A stretch of DNA of 11,791 nucleotides from Cryomorphaceae bacterium (lineage in GTDB: Bacteria > Bacteroidota > Bacteroidia > Flavobacteriales_G > Salibacteraceae), in the NCBI GenBank assembly GCA_003564735.1, contig PXEK01000364.1:1-11791 (forward strand), in the 5' to 3' direction. The notes beneath the pieces were generated by a model. It worked only from the letters and a program-made list of their open reading frames with translations, had not been told where the DNA came from and ran no database searches. This document shows positions 2 through 11,750 of the stretch, one piece after another (the first letter of the stretch is position 1; every line of letters begins with the position of its first letter). The position numbers and the translations under genes are program-made.

Positions 2-427
2 ATATATCCATGTATTACTCACCGATCCCGCAGTCCACGATACTGTAGCCGTTGTACCTGTCAAATTTGATACAACGATATTCGTAGGCGGTGGTAAATT
101 CGATTGTATGGTTACCTCAATAGTATCATTATTATTTACGGTGTCTGCTACATTATTTGGATTGCTCGTCCATGCCTTAATTGTATAAGAGCCTGCCGTA
201 AAATGATACGGGCCAAGATTGATTTGAGCAGTGTGTGACCCTGCTCCCGCTAAGGTATCCAGCGTACCAGAAAAATTAACAGGAGGCTGAGCAACGCCAT
301 TGACTTCCCAATCCACATCTACACTGTTGATTTGGTTAATACCAAAGTTTTGAATGGTTACCACTACGTTATGCGTATCCGGGCAATATACATTGGGAGA
401 ATCTAAACTTAATACTCCCGCATCATT
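2..427 (-). repeat. CARDB-FN3 protein repeat, copy 2 (cut by window edge)
   Basis: This is the second copy of the CARDB-FN3 unit, residues 652-793 of the surface protein. It begins NDAGVLSLDSPNVYC and reaches the SNLPPPTN junction at residue 760. Only about 33 residues of its FN3 part (including TVSW) are in the window. More copies may follow outside. Confidence 0.75.
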
Positions 428-2380
428 AGATGCCGGGGAGGTTAAAGGTACTACAACAACTAAGCCGTGACCTTCTTTCACTCCCTCTTGATTAATTTGA
501 TTTGCTCCGTTATTCACAGAGCCTCCTCCTCCAAAATCTATCGCATCATAAGTGTTGTCTCCACCGGAATAGCCTCCACCGCCGGCTCCGTCATTAAAAG
601 TTCCTCCTTTACCGCCACCGCCGCCAAAGCCGCCTTGACCAACACCTATGCCACCTTCGGCACCATTCACAAAAGCTTTACCATTAAAAGTCTGATCAGC
701 AGAGCCATTTTGACCATCAGTCAAAAGGCCACCACCGCCGCCGCCTCCCAATGTACTGGAATTATGTCCAAACCCTCCATTGGGGCCACGATTAATAATG
801 CGGCCATTTAATTGACCAAAGTTAGCAGTGTTTGGCGCTCCACTCCCGCCCGCTGCAATGACAAGCGGTGTTGTATCACCCACAATAACAAAGCTTCCAC
901 CACCTCCTGTTCCGCCACCGGTATTTACTCCTTCTCCCGCTTGGCCGACTACTATCTTTATTGTATCGCCTCCCAGCAATTGAAACTCACCTGTTAATCG
1001 AGCTCCGAGACCCGCAGGTGCATTATTACCTGTTGAAAAACCACCCTCAGCTCCATAAGCAGAAATCTCATAAATACCTGAAAATGGCACGACCCAATTC
1101 TGAATACCGTTATTGGAGGTAACCAAGCCATTTAAGTTTGTTCCTGAGTACTCAGCATTTAATTGAGCTTGGGTTGGCCCAAACGCCCCTGTTGCTCCGG
1201 CATTGGTAAAGCAATACCCGTTTGCAGGGCACGTAAAGCCCGTAACATAATTTAAAGGCCCGAACCAAAGTGAAGTGTCACCGGTTGGACATACCTCTCG
1301 AACGTAAAAATCATAACTCGTTAAATCAGACAGCCCCGTTACTGTTGCATTAGGAGAAGTCACAGCAGTCCCCGTTGTAGTAGGGGGAGGCGATCCGGCA
1401 GGAACATTTACATACAACCAAGAATTAACTGAACCACCGTTCCATGAAATCCAAGCTGTTGAGCCCGAAAGCGAATCAACCGTTACGTTGGTGGGCGGTG
1501 GAAGGTTGGACTGTAAAGTTGTGTTTGTAGTATCATTAATGTTAACCGTATCTTGGTTACCATTTGGCAAAGAAGTCCAAGCCTTAACATTATAAGCAGC
1601 GTTTGTGAATGTAAATGAACCCAAATTAACTTGTACTTGGTGAGGGTTCGCCCCCGATACCGTATCGATTAACCCTTGGAAATTAAACGTGGGTTGGGGT
1701 GTACCGTTCACTTCCCACTCCACCAAAACCGAATCAATTTGAGTTGTTCCAAAATTCTGAACAGTTACCACAACATCGTGTGCCCCCTGGCAAAAAACAT
1801 TGGGCGAATCCACAGATACGACACCCACGTCATCCGTAGCTCCGGTAGCTCCCTGTATAATTTCAATCTCTCTAAAATTTGGATTGGATGTTTGACCCGA
1901 CCCTGTCATTTGAAGTGAGGTTATTCGCATCCTATCCGTTACCAAAACCGGAAATGGAACCGAATTTATACATTGTTGCGGAAGGTTTGAGAATGTGTGA
2001 TGGTTTTGCCAAGTGCTGCCATCCCAAAATTGTATTGTAGCTCCCGTAAGAGACCTACTGGTTGCATTAGCATGATGGATAATAAATTCATCAACAATTT
2101 GAATGGAAGGCCAATTCCACTCAATCCAGTCAACACCGGGCGTCGCACTGGGCGGACTACCTGTACTAATCCACATCTGCTGCGTTCCGCATGTACCAAA
2201 ATTTAAATCATTGATAGCACCACAAGGACCTGTTCTACAATCACTTCCTGTTACAGTTGCCTGCGGAGCCACATTAATTTGCGACATCACATCTCTCGGG
2301 AATAGTAAAGCCGCCAGAAATAATAAACCGGAAAAGCCTTGAAGCAGTTCCCTCGAAAACATAGAGTACATCTTTCTCAT
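2..2380 (-). CDS. Giant secreted surface protein, N-terminal part (discoidin / CARDB-FN3 / ALK-type glycine-rich); truncated by window edge
   Basis: I checked all 793 codons from the ATG at 2378-2380 to the left edge and found no stop, so this is the 5' part of a longer gene. Residues 1-33 form a signal peptide (hydrophobic core around 16-28, ending MS|Q). In-frame Met4 and Met7 are alternative starts. Residues about 36-180 resemble a discoidin/F5-8C galactose-binding-like sandwich (WISTG, VDWIEWNW, EFIIHHANA, WDGSTWQ, DRMRITSLQM, NFREIEI). Residues 183-290 are a CARDB-like Ig domain and 292-381 an FN3 domain. Residues 429-644 are a glycine-rich domain of the ALK/LTK type, opening FSGIYEISAYGAEGG and closing with the strand GHGLVVVV. 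At 652 a second CARDB domain starts, followed at 760 by a second FN3 that is cut off. Such architectures are typical of adhesins or other exported surface proteins, and a type IX secretion C-terminal sorting domain would be expected beyond the edge (inference). Ligand and function are unknown. Confidence 0.9.
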   Translation of the reverse strand, partial: MRKMYSMFSRELLQGFSGLLFLAALLFPRDVMSQINVAPQATVTGSDCRTGPCGAINDLNFGTCGTQQMWISTGSPPSATPGVDWIEWNWPSIQIVDEFIIHHANATSRSLTGATIQFWDGSTWQNHHTFSNLPQQCINSVPFPVLVTDRMRITSLQMTGSGQTSNPNFREIEIIQGATGATDDVGVVSVDSPNVFCQGAHDVVVTVQNFGTTQIDSVLVEWEVNGTPQPTFNFQGLIDTVSGANPHQVQVNLGSFTFTNAAYNVKAWTSLPNGNQDTVNINDTTNTTLQSNLPPPTNVTVDSLSGSTAWISWNGGSVNSWLYVNVPAGSPPPTTTGTAVTSPNATVTGLSDLTSYDFYVREVCPTGDTSLWFGPLNYVTGFTCPANGYCFTNAGATGAFGPTQAQLNAEYSGTNLNGLVTSNNGIQNWVVPFSGIYEISAYGAEGGFSTGNNAPAGLGARLTGEFQLLGGDTIKIVVGQAGEGVNTGGGTGGGGSFVIVGDTTPLVIAAGGSGAPNTANFGQLNGRIINRGPNGGFGHNSSTLGGGGGGGLLTDGQNGSADQTFNGKAFVNGAEGGIGVGQGGFGGGGGKGGTFNDGAGGGGYSGGDNTYDAIDFGGGGSVNNGANQINQEGVKEGHGLVVVVPLTSPASNDAGVLSLDSPNVYCPDTHNVVVTIQNFGINQINSVDVDWEVNGVAQPPVNFSGTLDTLAGAGSHTAQINLGPYHFTAGSYTIKAWTSNPNNVADTVNNNDTIEVTIQSNLPPPTNIVVSNLTGTTATVSWTAGSVSNTWIY
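1238..1834 (-). repeat. CARDB-FN3 protein repeat, copy 1 (complete)
   Basis: This stretch encodes residues 183-381 of the surface protein. It begins DDVGVVSVDSPNVFC and the junction to the FN3 part reads SNLPPPTN at residue 291. From start to junction it is 108 residues. The second copy, at the left edge, is 107 residues over the same span and shares the same landmarks (DSPNV[FY]C, VVVT[VI]QNFG, WEVNG, VKAWTS/IKAWTS, SNLPPPTN). This is a tandem-type domain duplication, separated by the glycine-rich domain. Confidence 0.8.
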
Positions 2381-4834: not shown

Positions 4835-5308
4835 TTAAAAAGCGTCAACATCAGCTTTCTCCATAGTTGAATAGCTGATTTTAAGCGATTGAGCTTCTCT
4901 GAGTTCTTGTTTTACATCTGTAACAATACCCATTTTTACATCTCGATCAACTTTGAGCGAGGTAGTTAACAAAGGTATTTCAGCCTCATCTACTTCTGTT
5001 TTTCGAGTTTCAATGTAAGGGCCGATATCTTTAGGTGTTGCAAAAGCGTCATTAAGTTGAATACGCGGCGTTGTACCGTAGCGTTCTTTCTCAACCGGTT
5101 CACCTATATACACGTAGTTTACCAACGCTTTTTGCTTGAGTTTTTCTACTTCACTGGCTTCAGGTTGATTAATTTCAACTTTCAAATCCACTTCTCTCAT
5201 CACGGTTGAAACCATAAAGAAGAAAAGCAGCATAAAAACAATATCAGGTAATGATGATGTAGAAATTGCGGGTTGTTTATCCGCTCCGCCTTTTTTAAAC
5301 TTTGACAT
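4835..5308 (-). CDS. exbD: ExbD/TolR family proton-motor subunit (second copy)
   Basis: This 157-residue protein has one N-terminal membrane helix (about 20-37) with the family's essential proton-carrying Asp at D22 (SSLPDIVFMLLFFFMVST), preceded by a basic cytoplasmic tail. The periplasmic domain (about 40-157) starts with the family's usual short beta region (VDLKVEINQPEA). ExbD dimers sit inside an ExbB pentamer and turn proton flow into mechanical work on a periplasmic partner. It is the last gene of the operon, 3 bases after the first exbD and followed by a strong terminator. The two copies differ clearly, so they probably form a heteromeric or two-client motor (inference). ExbD and TolR cannot be separated by sequence here. 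ExbD is preferred because no tol genes are present. Confidence 0.92.
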   Translation of the reverse strand: MSKFKKGGADKQPAISTSSLPDIVFMLLFFFMVSTVMREVDLKVEINQPEASEVEKLKQKALVNYVYIGEPVEKERYGTTPRIQLNDAFATPKDIGPYIETRKTEVDEAEIPLLTTSLKVDRDVKMGIVTDVKQELREAQSLKISYSTMEKADVDAF

Positions 5309-5311
5309 ATT

Positions 5312-5893
5312 TTATCCTCCTACACTTTTGGGTTCTGCTTCTGATATCCGCTGCGGGTATATGGCTCGAATGGCTTTCACTTTTTCATCTTCACCATCTT
5401 CTTTGAGTCTGTCAAATGACTTGCCAAACTTTTCACGAGCCAATTCATTTCTCAATTCATTGTATGCTCTGGCCAGCTCATTTTGAACTTGAATGTACAA
5501 TTCATACGATGTTCCTCTATCATTTTGGAGTGAAATCACTTGCTTGGAAACATCCGTTTTCCCGAAAAAAGGAACGTCAACCGTTTTTTTATCCGGCAAC
5601 TTAGGGTCATTTTTGGGGTTAGCAATAAACTCCTTTGCCGCATCTTTAAGTTGACTTATTTCCATAGGTTCTCCTTCAACCAAAAGTTTATTTTGTGCAT
5701 TAGCTAAAACAACAAACACGTTGCGTTCCTTGATTGGCGGCGATTCCACATCATCCGGAACAGGCGGTGGCAGCTTACGCATCAATCCAAAGTCGGTATC
5801 CATGGTGGTTGTCACCAAGAAGAAAACCAACAGGAGAAAGGCGATATCAGCCATTGAGCCTGCATTTATTTCAGGTGTATCTCTTTTTGCCAT
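5312..5893 (-). CDS. exbD: ExbD/TolR family proton-motor subunit (first copy, long form)
   Basis: This 193-residue protein has a short N-tail (MAKRDTPEINAGSMAD) and a single membrane helix (about 15-32) with the key Asp at D16 (ADIAFLLLVFFLVTTTM). The periplasmic part is about 160 residues, longer than the roughly 110 of E. coli ExbD. It ends in a charged, probably helical stretch (about 125-175, many E/R/K) that may be a coiled coil. A Pro-rich segment (KLPPPVPDD) follows the helix, which is typical of Bacteroidota copies. It sits between the 4-TM protein (15 bases) and the second exbD (3 bases) in one transcript. Confidence 0.92.
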   Translation of the reverse strand: MAKRDTPEINAGSMADIAFLLLVFFLVTTTMDTDFGLMRKLPPPVPDDVESPPIKERNVFVVLANAQNKLLVEGEPMEISQLKDAAKEFIANPKNDPKLPDKKTVDVPFFGKTDVSKQVISLQNDRGTSYELYIQVQNELARAYNELRNELAREKFGKSFDRLKEDGEDEKVKAIRAIYPQRISEAEPKSVGG

Positions 5894-5908
5894 AGTGCTC
5901 TAAGTTCG

Positions 5909-6325
5909 TTATATAATTAAACGTCGAACGCCGGAAAATATTACTGCACCTATGGCCATAATCGCCAAAATATAAAAGGTGTACAATAATGTACCGGGAA
6001 AGTGCGCAACGCCTTCAGTAGTATCGTATCTACTAAAGTCACTACCCGAAGATAGTAGGTAAGCCAGCAATAAAACAACCAGCATACCACCTATACCTAT
6101 ACCTATACCTTTTGCGGCAGTGGGTTTCATAATGACTCCTACCACGGCACCACCCAAAGCGGCAATACCGGTGAGTAAAAAGAAAATATAACCTACATAA
6201 AGTATAGGGTCGGCTTGGCCGTAAGTTGACGGATCATCACCATCAACTCCCAAAGCCACGAGAAACACGATTACCGAAACGATAATCAGTGAAATCATCA
6301 CGATTTTTGGAATTTTATTCAGCAT
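5909..6325 (-). CDS. Four-helix membrane protein of the ExbB-x-ExbD-ExbD cluster, unknown function
   Basis: This 138-residue protein is almost entirely membrane: helices at about 7-25, 41-64, 73-91 and 112-133. Short loops contain DGDDPSTYGQADP after helix 1 and SDFSRYDTTEG before helix 4. Helix 3 is glycine-rich (GIGIGIGGM). A small protein of this type between ExbB and the ExbD pair is a recurring arrangement in Bacteroidota, from my knowledge of the phylum. I cannot name its family or function. The gene starts 4 bases after the exbB stop and is surely co-transcribed, so it may be an accessory subunit of the motor complex (inference). Confidence 0.85.
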   Translation of the reverse strand: MLNKIPKIVMISLIIVSVIVFLVALGVDGDDPSTYGQADPILYVGYIFFLLTGIAALGGAVVGVIMKPTAAKGIGIGIGGMLVVLLLAYLLSSGSDFSRYDTTEGVAHFPGTLLYTFYILAIMAIGAVIFSGVRRLII

Positions 6326-6329
6326 AAGA

Positions 6330-7196
6330 CTATTTGTTTTTAGCGTTGTACTTTACCAACATATCTACCAAGCTGATAGAGGCATCTTCCATATCATTCG
6401 TAATGCCGTCAATTTTAGCAATAATGTAGTTGTAGAACACCTGTAAAATCATGGCAACCAACAGTCCTGAAACCGTTGTAATCAAAGCCACACCAATACC
6501 ACCGGCCACAATACCGGGAGAAATATTGTTGGCTTCGGCAATTGCATCAAAGGCGCCAATCATACCGATTACCGTACCAAAGAAACCGAGCATAGGTGCC
6601 AGTGCGATAAATAAAGAAATCCAAGAAACACCTTTTTCTAATTGGCCCAATTGAACGCTGCCGTATGATTCAACCGATTTTTCAACCATTTCGATACCCT
6701 CGTCAAATCGATCGAGACCTTGATAAAAAATGCTGGCCACGGGACCTCTGGTATTTCTGCAAAGTTCTTTAGCGGCTTCAACACCCCCGTTGTTCAAGGC
6801 ATTTTCAGTTTCTCGCACCAACTTTTTGGTATTTGTAGTAGCCATAGAAAGGTAAAGAATACGCTCGATAGCGATGGCTAAACCCAAAATTAATGCGATA
6901 ACAACGAATGACATAAAACCGGGGTCACCGTCAATGAATTTTTGCTTTATAATTTGATGAAAGCTCGCTTCTTCTTCCTCTTCCTCCTCTAAGCCAATAG
7001 TAGCCTCCTCTTCAGGTTCGGGCTCTTCTGCAACCGCCGCTGTATCCTCAACTTGTTCTTCTTCAGTATCCGTTTCTTCCTCTTGGTTTTCAACTTCTTC
7101 TTGAGCCGGGGTTTCCTGTTCGTTTTGCGCCAAAACAGGCGATATTGTGAACGATAAGAACCCGATTAGGGTTATAAAGACAAATAACTTTTTCAT
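6330..7196 (-). CDS. exbB: ExbB/TolQ/MotA family proton channel with acidic periplasmic N-terminus
   Basis: This 288-residue protein starts with a signal-like hydrophobic segment (4-22, VLA|Q). Residues 26-76 follow as a low-complexity acidic stretch with 25 Glu and 2 Asp and no Lys or Arg. The ExbB core comes next: helix 1 about 93-116 (GLAIAIERILYL), a cytoplasmic domain about 117-188, helix 2 about 189-216 (LAPMLGFFGTVIGMIGAF, the family signature) and helix 3 about 226-256 (GGIGVALITTVSGLLVA, with the conserved Thr pair). ExbB forms the pentameric stator around an ExbD dimer and conducts protons across the inner membrane. It is first of four tightly packed genes (gaps 4, 15 and 3 bases). 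No convincing promoter box was found in the 180 bases upstream. The closest -7 match (7347-7354) lacks a -33 box and is about 150 bases away. Confidence 0.93.
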   Translation of the reverse strand: MKKLFVFITLIGFLSFTISPVLAQNEQETPAQEEVENQEEETDTEEEQVEDTAAVAEEPEPEEEATIGLEEEEEEEASFHQIIKQKFIDGDPGFMSFVVIALILGLAIAIERILYLSMATTNTKKLVRETENALNNGGVEAAKELCRNTRGPVASIFYQGLDRFDEGIEMVEKSVESYGSVQLGQLEKGVSWISLFIALAPMLGFFGTVIGMIGAFDAIAEANNISPGIVAGGIGVALITTVSGLLVAMILQVFYNYIIAKIDGITNDMEDASISLVDMLVKYNAKNK

Positions 7197-7377
7197 GATT
7201 TTCTATTTGATTTTAATTTAACGTTTAAAGTTGATTTATATTTGATTTAAAAGTACAAAGCAGATTATTCTCATTTATTGATTGCAAACTTGTAAAAAAA
7301 AAAATTTGTAGCATGAACGGTTATTGTAAAGTAAACATTAATTTCACAAATCTATTTTAGTTTTATGTGCTTTACAG

Positions 7378-7464
7378 CGGAGAGAGAGGGATTCGAACCC
7401 TCGGTACCCGTGAAGGTACACCCGCTTTCCAGGCGAGCCCGTTCGACCGCTCCGGCACCTCTCC
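7378..7464 (-). tRNA. tRNA-Ser(GGA)
   Basis: The 87-nt length with a long variable arm fits tRNA-Ser. The acceptor stem GGAGAGG (7458-7464) pairs with TCTCTCC (7379-7385), with one G-U pair. The discriminator is G, as usual for serine tRNA. The anticodon arm reads CTCGC-CTGGAAA-GCGGG, anticodon GGA, decoding UCC/UCU. The T arm carries GGTTCGAATCC. CCA is not encoded (CTG follows), so it must be added after transcription. Confidence 0.97.
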
Positions 7465-9752: not shown

Positions 9753-10700
9753 ATGAAAAACATAACCGCTATTACCGTGCTTGCACTCACTATTTTTTGC
9801 TCTTTAAGCACATTTGCCCAAGAAGATAAAGACAAACTCAGTGATTTTGAACGCTACAAGCTGCGGCAAAGGCAAAACCTAGAGGAGTTTGTACAAAACA
9901 GAGAGGCTCACTTGAAGCGACTGGAGCAGGACTACAAAAATTACCTTAAGGGCCTGAGTAGTTTACAAGCGGAATACGAAAAAAATGATGAGCCTGAAAA
10001 AGCCGAAATGGTAAAGGACATGATTGAATACGAGAAAACGATTAGAAAAAACACGAACCATGAACTCACCGATGAAGATTTTGAGGACGACTCCGAAAAA
10101 GACAAAGCAAAAATACAGCCTGCCAAGGTAAAAACGGCAAAAAGTGAAGAAAAGGGAAAGCCTAAGGTCGAAAAACAAAAAAAAGTAGAAAAACCCAACG
10201 CCTCCAAATCCTCAAAAGAGAAGCCGGAGAAACAAGAACCTGAAACAATAATTGAAAATGTAGAAGAACTTACACCCAAAAACGATGCTGACCCGTACAC
10301 GCCCAATTTAGTACCCCTCCCCGAGAGTGCCTCGCGAATAACTTCGCCGTTTGGCACTAGAATGCATCCCGTTTTGAAAAGAGAAATGAAGCATAACGGA
10401 GTTGATTTCGGGTCGCCGATGAACACTAAAACCTATGCTGCCGCTAACGGAAGGGTAACTGTAGCTCAATACAGCAAAAGCTTTGGAAACTTCATCATGA
10501 TTGAGCATGAAAACGGCTACGTTACGGTTTATGCTCATTTAGAAAGTATGTCGGTAAAACCGGGTGATGTGGTGAAAAAAGGTGATGAAATAGCACTTTC
10601 GGGAAATACGGGGAGAAGCACCGGCCCTCATTTACATTATGAAATCAGACTCGACGGCACACCTATTGATCCTGACGACTACTTAACACAACAACTTTAA
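9753..10700 (+). CDS. Secreted M23 (lysostaphin/LytM-type) peptidoglycan endopeptidase with coiled coil
   Basis: This 315-residue protein begins with a signal peptide (1-22, FA|Q). A probable coiled coil spans about 25-105 (YKLRQRQNLEEF, EAHLKRLEQDYKNYL). A Lys/Glu/Pro-rich linker at about 107-180 is likely disordered. The C-terminal M23 LytM domain covers about 195-310. All active-site residues are present: zinc ligands H214 and D218 (HNGVD) and H295, plus H262 (YAHL) and H293 (GPHLHYE). It should therefore be an active zinc metallopeptidase that cuts peptide cross-links in the periplasm, unlike the inactive EnvC type. The coiled-coil plus M23 layout resembles EnvC/NlpD and MepM-like enzymes, so a role in cell division or wall growth is possible. 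The channel gene starts 12 bases later, on what is probably the same transcript. Confidence 0.93.
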   Translation: MKNITAITVLALTIFCSLSTFAQEDKDKLSDFERYKLRQRQNLEEFVQNREAHLKRLEQDYKNYLKGLSSLQAEYEKNDEPEKAEMVKDMIEYEKTIRKNTNHELTDEDFEDDSEKDKAKIQPAKVKTAKSEEKGKPKVEKQKKVEKPNASKSSKEKPEKQEPETIIENVEELTPKNDADPYTPNLVPLPESASRITSPFGTRMHPVLKREMKHNGVDFGSPMNTKTYAAANGRVTVAQYSKSFGNFIMIEHENGYVTVYAHLESMSVKPGDVVKKGDEIALSGNTGRSTGPHLHYEIRLDGTPIDPDDYLTQQL

Positions 10701-10712
10701 AATCTGAAAATC

Positions 10713-11750
10713 GTGAGATATTTGCACTATTTACTTTTACTTTTTTTGGTCGGAAACGCTAATGCGCAATCAGACTCAACCACCACCCTAAAAGTAGGTA
10801 TTAAACATGCAGCCCCTTTCGTGAAAAACACATCAGAGGAACCTACGGGGGAGAGCATTGACCTTTGGGAAATCATTGCAGAACAAGAGAATCTCGACTT
10901 TACCTATGTCACTTACGATGAAACAAAACAATTGCTCACCGCCGTGGCAAACGGCGAAGTTGATTTGAGTATAAACCCGACAACAGTAACCACAAAACGA
11001 ATGAAAAACCTACATTTTTCTCAACCTTACTACATATCAGAAACAGTTATGGTTAAGAAAAAACAAAGCGTATGGTTAGCTATGATAGATAACCTATTCA
11101 GCGGAGAATTTTTCGTTGCTCTAGCTGTTCTTTTATCGATAATTATGGTTTTTGGGCTACTCACTTGGGTTTTTGAGCAAGGCAAAAATGACGAATTCCG
11201 CAAAGGAATAAAAGGGTTGGGAGATGGTTTTTGGTGGAGCGCCGTTACTATGACAACCGTTGGATACGGTGATAAATCGCCGGTTACACTAGGCGGTAGA
11301 TTTATCGCCTTTATTTGGATGTTCTCGGCAATTGTGCTCATAAGCAGTTTAACCGCAGGTATTGCCAGTTCGCTCACTGTTCAATCATTAGAAAGTCGTA
11401 TTGATGATGTTCGCGACTTAAAGCGTTTTAAAGTAGGCTCCCTAAAGGAGACCGGCCCCGGAGATTTACTTAAAAATAACGGAGTATCATTCAATAGTTT
11501 TGCAACGATTGAAGAGGGGTTAACGGCCGTTCAAGATGAGGAAATAGACTTTTTTATTTACGACAAACCTATATCGGCTTACCACCTCAAAACCGGAGAT
11601 TTTACCGATTTGGTTATTTCAGATAAAATATTGAGGACCGATTATTTCAGCTTCATTTATCCTAAAAACAGCTTATTACGTAATAAGCTGGACCCTGTGA
11701 TAGTGGAAGTCGTAAAGTCGGAAAAATGGAAATTCTCAATTGGCATGTAA
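10713..11750 (+). CDS. Prokaryotic ionotropic glutamate receptor-like (GluR0-type) ligand-gated K+ channel
   Basis: This encodes 345 residues from a GTG start, 12 bases after the M23 stop. Residues 1-18 are a signal peptide (ANA|Q). Residues 26-115 are the first half (S1) of a type 3 solute-binding domain, with R96 aligning to the ligand carboxylate-binding Arg of glutamate receptors (PTTVTTKR...FSQPYY). Helix M1 is about 133-154. A re-entrant pore loop about 171-186 carries the K+ filter TTVGYGD (181-187). Helix M2 is about 196-222 and contains SSLTAGIASSLT, the equivalent of the receptor motif SYTANLAA. Residues 225-345 are the second half (S2), with D284 in FFIYDKP matching the acidic residue that binds the ligand amino group. 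The order S1-M1-P-M2-S2 is that of Synechocystis GluR0. The protein should sit in the inner membrane, bind an amino acid in the periplasm and pass K+. Ligand and physiological role are unknown. Confidence 0.9.
   Translation: MRYLHYLLLLFLVGNANAQSDSTTTLKVGIKHAAPFVKNTSEEPTGESIDLWEIIAEQENLDFTYVTYDETKQLLTAVANGEVDLSINPTTVTTKRMKNLHFSQPYYISETVMVKKKQSVWLAMIDNLFSGEFFVALAVLLSIIMVFGLLTWVFEQGKNDEFRKGIKGLGDGFWWSAVTMTTVGYGDKSPVTLGGRFIAFIWMFSAIVLISSLTAGIASSLTVQSLESRIDDVRDLKRFKVGSLKETGPGDLLKNNGVSFNSFATIEEGLTAVQDEEIDFFIYDKPISAYHLKTGDFTDLVISDKILRTDYFSFIYPKNSLLRNKLDPVIVEVVKSEKWKFSIGM

Follow-up and report, generated by a model that had tools for sequence, protein, structure and literature searches.

A Probable GluR0-Type Ligand-Gated K+ Channel Encoded by a Cryomorphaceae Bacterium

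The gene at positions 10713..11750 (forward strand) of contig PXEK01000364.1 (assembly GCA_003564735.1), from a Cryomorphaceae bacterium, encodes a well-formed member of a receptor family that has been described before. Its domain order, K+ filter, GluR0-like clamshell, and residues R96 and D284 place it among the GluR0-type (“Group 1”) prokaryotic ionotropic glutamate receptors (iGluRs). The product is very likely a subunit of a homotetrameric K+ channel that sits in the inner membrane and is gated by a small alpha-amino acid. Direct support comes from the sequence, the domain order, the intact K+ filter, the predicted clamshell fold, and the conserved arginine and aspartate; the ligand class, tetrameric assembly, topology, gating, and K+ selectivity would follow those of GluR0 and its kin. 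The window, i.e., the whole analyzed stretch of 11,791 nucleotides, holds the gene near its downstream end, and the receptor is laid out in it as follows.

10713..11750, forward strand: GluR0-type ligand-gated K+ channel gene, GTG start, 345 amino acids (Pfam, homologues, predicted model, structure comparison)
10713..10769, forward strand: probable signal peptide, residues 1–19 (sequence read by eye; helix at residues 4–14 in the model)
10788..11069, forward strand: S1 half of the ligand-binding clamshell, residues 26–119, with F36, P89, T91, and R96 (Pfam, alignments, model)
11103..11177, forward strand: M1 helix, residues 131–155, preceded by a pre-M1 helix at 120–128 (model, hydropathy)
11208..11273, forward strand: pore helix and K+ selectivity filter, residues 166–187, with the filter TTVGYGD at 181–187 (model, hydropathy)
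11289..11381, forward strand: M2 inner helix, residues 193–223, with SSLTAGIASSLT at 211–222 (model, hydropathy)
11388..11747, forward strand: S2 half of the ligand-binding clamshell, residues 226–345 (alignment, model, structure comparison)

The order S1, M1, pore loop, M2, S2, which the original prediction had read from the letters alone, is borne out by Pfam, the predicted model, and hydropathy. Two segments (residues 122–157 and 190–224) lie above the hydropathy threshold with the intervening pore loop below it, and the scan finds no segment above threshold after residue 230 of the receptor, in agreement with the earlier claim that a fourth helix (M4) is lacking. An amino-terminal domain is also absent, the protein totaling 345 residues with S1 beginning near residue 26. 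The filter, which had been called intact, indeed reads TTVGYGD, and the receptor-like motif noted in M2 is found as SSLTAGIASSLT, starting at residue 211, where it aligns with SYTANLAAF of the animal receptors.

The single-chain model of the receptor has a mean predicted local distance difference test (pLDDT) score of 89.8 and a predicted template modeling (pTM) score of 0.77. The original prediction had proposed superposition on the GluR0 ligand core as a check, and in the model both half-domains join into one clamshell resembling that core. Among 1000 solved chains compared with VIA-align, ranks 1 and 2 are taken by the GluR0 ligand cores of Nostoc (2pyy; 208 residues aligned out of a chain of 212, 1.8 Å) and Synechocystis (1ii5; 216 residues out of a chain of 221, 2.4 Å), and many of the next-best matches are glutamine-, arginine-, and lysine-binding proteins. 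A profile search likewise ranks 2pyy (1e-32) and GluR0 1iit/1ii5 (5e-30) first among solved chains, and the alignments cover both halves. A Foldseek alignment of the model with GluA2 spans 372 columns including gaps (E 1.5e-19, TMq 0.61, root-mean-square deviation 6.9), and the receptor profile is colinear with GluN1 through the pore. Thus, the pore occupies the same place in the clamshell as it does in iGluRs.

Three Pfam families exceed their curated cut-offs in the receptor: SBP_bac_3 (5.3e-20), Lig_chan (9.3e-15), and Ion_trans_2 (1.8e-13). NCBI/JGI names shown for relatives are of the transporter or substrate-binding kind (e.g., “transporter substrate-binding domain-containing protein”), and a similar misnaming of prokaryotic iGluR sequences has been noted by Ger et al. 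(PMC2950845). Together with PF00497 being the best single Pfam match, such names would suit a transporter substrate-binding protein, a reading whose probability is close to nil: the clamshell contains a complete K+ pore, filter included, at the point where iGluRs carry theirs, and no ABC permease or ATPase occurs among the nine neighboring open reading frames (ORFs) scanned, a set without the ORF at 2-2380; the contig ends 41 bases downstream of the receptor gene.

At E <= 1e-3, 2602 proteins match the receptor, some of them perhaps related to just its pore or just its binding domain. Self-match aside, the best of the matches listed is 83% identical and covers 99% of the length. The gene is therefore not a chance ORF. 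PF00497, PF00060, and PF07885 are all present in every one of the best 120 of the 2602 matches, the window's own included. A few of the matches listed bear the names Salibacter, Owenweeksia, Psychroflexus, Salegentibacter, and Salinimicrobium, which support a Bacteroidota host. An alignment of 159 sequences was assembled from the window protein, 119 other listed homologues, and 39 whole-genome loci; these sequences are not independent because the loci overlap the listed homologues (the protein of locus L039 is identical to homologue P0004). The filter TTVGYGD is kept in 150 of the 159, and seven variants are still of the K+ type (STTGYGD in three, STVGYGD in two, TTTGYGD and TTAGFGD in one each). 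The remaining two, LKLKKQD and --IGSSD, do not read as K+-type filters and may represent misalignment or divergent pores.

Three short segments of the gene bear on the ligand site.

10998..11000, forward strand: codon of R96, the residue aligned with the GluR0 arginine that binds the alpha-carboxylate of the ligand
11451..11459, forward strand: T247-G248-P249 at a ligand-loop position, T-T-A in GluR0 and S-S-(S/A/T) in 88 of 159 sequences
11562..11564, forward strand: codon of D284, the residue aligned with the GluR0 aspartate that binds the amino group of the ligand

R96 and D284, both singled out by the original prediction, are indeed present, and the profile alignment matches them to the ligand residues of GluR0 and 2pyy, by which their side chains would face the cleft. 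Position 96 is arginine in all 159 aligned sequences, while position 284 is aspartate in 156, glutamate in two, and glycine in one. The roles of the conserved arginine (S1) and aspartate (S2) in holding the ligand have been described (PMC2950845). Because both residues are kept, an alpha-amino acid is favored as the ligand of the window protein on sequence grounds.

At residues 247–249, the loops among the 159 sequences include S-S-S (51), S-S-A (20), S-S-T (17), and T-G-T (17). T-G-P is found in the window protein only, and homologues P0002, P0003, and P0004 have T-G-S. In GluA2, S654 and T655 presumably stand at this loop; on that assumption, P249 would delete a hydroxyl and a backbone donor from the site that, in animal receptors, grips the distal end of glutamate, taking away a donor for its far carboxylate. 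T-G-P may be taken as a mild hint against glutamate as the ligand. Near R96, P89 is kept in 119/119 other listed homologues versus 19/39 genome loci and T91 in 117/119 versus 34/39. N88 occurs in 119/119 versus 6/39, and D310 in 119/119 versus 3/39.

Clamshells of this solute-binding fold accommodate a wide range of ligands, and the pocket-side positions N88, 248, 249, and D310 are unlike those of GluR0. A receptor of the same build that responds to something other than an alpha-amino acid, such as an organic acid or small metabolite, is nevertheless unlikely, as the carboxylate-binding arginine and the amino-binding aspartate are both present and many of the next-best structural matches bind glutamine, arginine, or lysine. 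The uniqueness of T-G-P among the 159 sequences could also be read as a sign that the clamshell no longer binds a ligand and that the K+ channel is constitutive or otherwise gated. As described in a 2026 study (PMC13099474), a GluR0 construct without its soluble domains does not complement a K+-uptake mutant, and these domains are needed for dimerization too; a clamshell could therefore persist for assembly alone. Loss of ligand binding is still very unlikely given R96 in 159/159 and D284 in 156/159 sequences, as expected for a working site, and the presence of F36, P89, and T91 in the window protein.

It is possible, though tentative, that within the K+-type ionotropic receptors the closest homologues form a Bacteroidota branch of their own, recognizable by N88 and D310 and with a pocket for a non-glutamate amino acid, from which the window protein has further diverged via P249. 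In the FastTree phylogeny, the window protein groups with P0002 (0.913) and with P0002, P0003, P0004, and L039 (0.999). Support at the deeper nodes along its path is mixed (0.0 to 0.921); therefore, no branching order within the family is claimed, and the tree does not show a separate Bacteroidota branch.

By analogy with GluR0, an amino-acid-gated K+ channel of this build would work as follows. The S1–S2 clamshell, on the periplasmic side, would close around a small alpha-amino acid, with R96 holding the ligand carboxylate and D284 the ligand amino group. Closure would tug M2 via the S1–M1 and M2–S2 linkers and open the pore, through which K+ could move down its gradient. As a guess, the physiological role might be fast K+ movement and control of volume or potential as the ionic or amino-acid surroundings change.

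The original prediction had also stated that such channels are few outside cyanobacteria. Its GluR0-type identity stands, and this part is too strong: the gene has a patchy distribution close to the window and is not uncommon across the phylum, as judged from the counts in genome samples, all of which include the window's own genome. Among 60 related genomes, 44 match at E <= 1e-3, with near full-length matches in four and the pore or another piece in the others. PF00060 is found in 4/35 genomes of the family sample; the same search gave 0/14 positives in control genomes, which do not demonstrate detection of known receptors. At E <= 1e-40, 8/295 genomes of the class sample match, and at E <= 1e-30, 31/395 genomes of the phylum sample do so, 27 of them outside the window's class. 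Besides the window's own, the phylum sample yielded 31 places, of which 30 were included and one, in genome G664, was omitted (stop inside the match). A single-protein scan of genome contigs gave one relative, matching residues 171–219 only. The window's own genome has one full-length copy. A second match in that genome (L003, G000:C313:1404-1697) covers the pore part (residues 135–238, 31% identity) with one TGA inside. Among the literature matches listed, no title or abstract opening has a Bacteroidota member as its subject.

The surroundings of the receptor gene in the window include the following.

9753-10700, forward strand: gene for an M23 peptidase whose N-terminal part is long and charged; the gene's stop lies 12 bases before the receptor start
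7377-7464, reverse strand: tRNA-Ser (gga), between the ExbB-like and TPR genes
4835-7196, reverse strand: ExbB-like gene, small gene, and two consecutive ExbD-like genes
2-2380, reverse strand: large surface protein, probably secreted, that extends past the window edge and contains repeated modules and a stretch rich in glycine (by eye)

The M23 gene, which its 12-base distance made a possible operon partner, was considered as a conserved functional partner of the receptor and rejected: tblastn gave no M23 match in any of the nine relative regions fetched. In genome G002, which has the most similar receptor among the genomes searched, the receptor gene directly follows a TPR gene with no M23 gene between them. 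The best matches of the M23 protein in G001, G002, and G009 are limited to the peptidase part, the best one at 41%. G002 also shares the ExbB-like/small/ExbD-like order of the window, its contig beginning inside the last gene.

Among 274 neighbors from 39 relative regions, no cluster is present in more than four loci; the receptor itself was recovered as a kept ORF in 36/39, the misses (L042, L043, and L109) being probably displaced by overlapping ORFs. A Rid-family deaminase gene and a sodium:solute symporter gene lie near the receptor, convergent on the opposite strand, in L039, L040, and L041 (genomes G002, G001, and G009, of the window's family). The window's contig ends 41 bases past the receptor stop, too early to show these genes. 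The G002 Rid protein has no match in the window's assembly, which is 83% complete, and such an empty answer shows nothing. The pair is given no weight as evidence for a ligand.

Among the relatives of animal and plant glutamate receptors, the prokaryotic iGluRs are the simplest. Well-formed Bacteroidota members, some carrying database names of transporter binding proteins, offer new starting material for full-length structures and for learning what bacteria sense with such receptors, being small K+ receptors that lack M4 and differ in their pocket.

GluR0 of Synechocystis sp. PCC 6803 (slr1257; 1ii5, 1iit, 1iiw) has 24% identity to the window protein in the aligned ligand core and differs from it in having T-T-A in place of T-G-P (247–249), glycine in place of N88, and Glu-Pro in place of D310-Y311. 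The 2026 study (PMC13099474) places GluR0 in the plasma membrane and reports that it rescues a K+-uptake mutant, that PhoA fusions, some not significant, indicate a topology opposite to that of KcsA, and that the wild type shrinks more slowly in one phase after a KCl upshock. The Nostoc punctiforme GluR0 homologue (2pyy, core with L-glutamate) also has 24% identity, with alanine at the place of P89 and serine at that of T91. AvGluR1 of the rotifer Adineta vaga (4io2, 4io4, 4io7) is eukaryotic and has 20% identity in the ligand core. The animal AMPA and NMDA receptors (GluA2, GluN1), at 15–20% identity in the rows listed in the structure comparisons, have the pore inserted into the clamshell in the same way. 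According to PMC6385376, the K+ filter is missing from animal receptors, which possess M4 as well as an amino-terminal domain.

Some of the Group 1 accessions of Ger et al. may, we presume, belong to green sulfur bacteria. Their Group 1 list has 12 members, and the words Bacteroidetes, Cytophaga, Flavobacter, and Chlorob are absent from the main text of that paper (PMC2950845). As defined there, Group 1 combines a filter of the K+ type, a pair of membrane helices separating S1 from S2, and the ligand-binding arginine and aspartate, and the window protein shares all of these.
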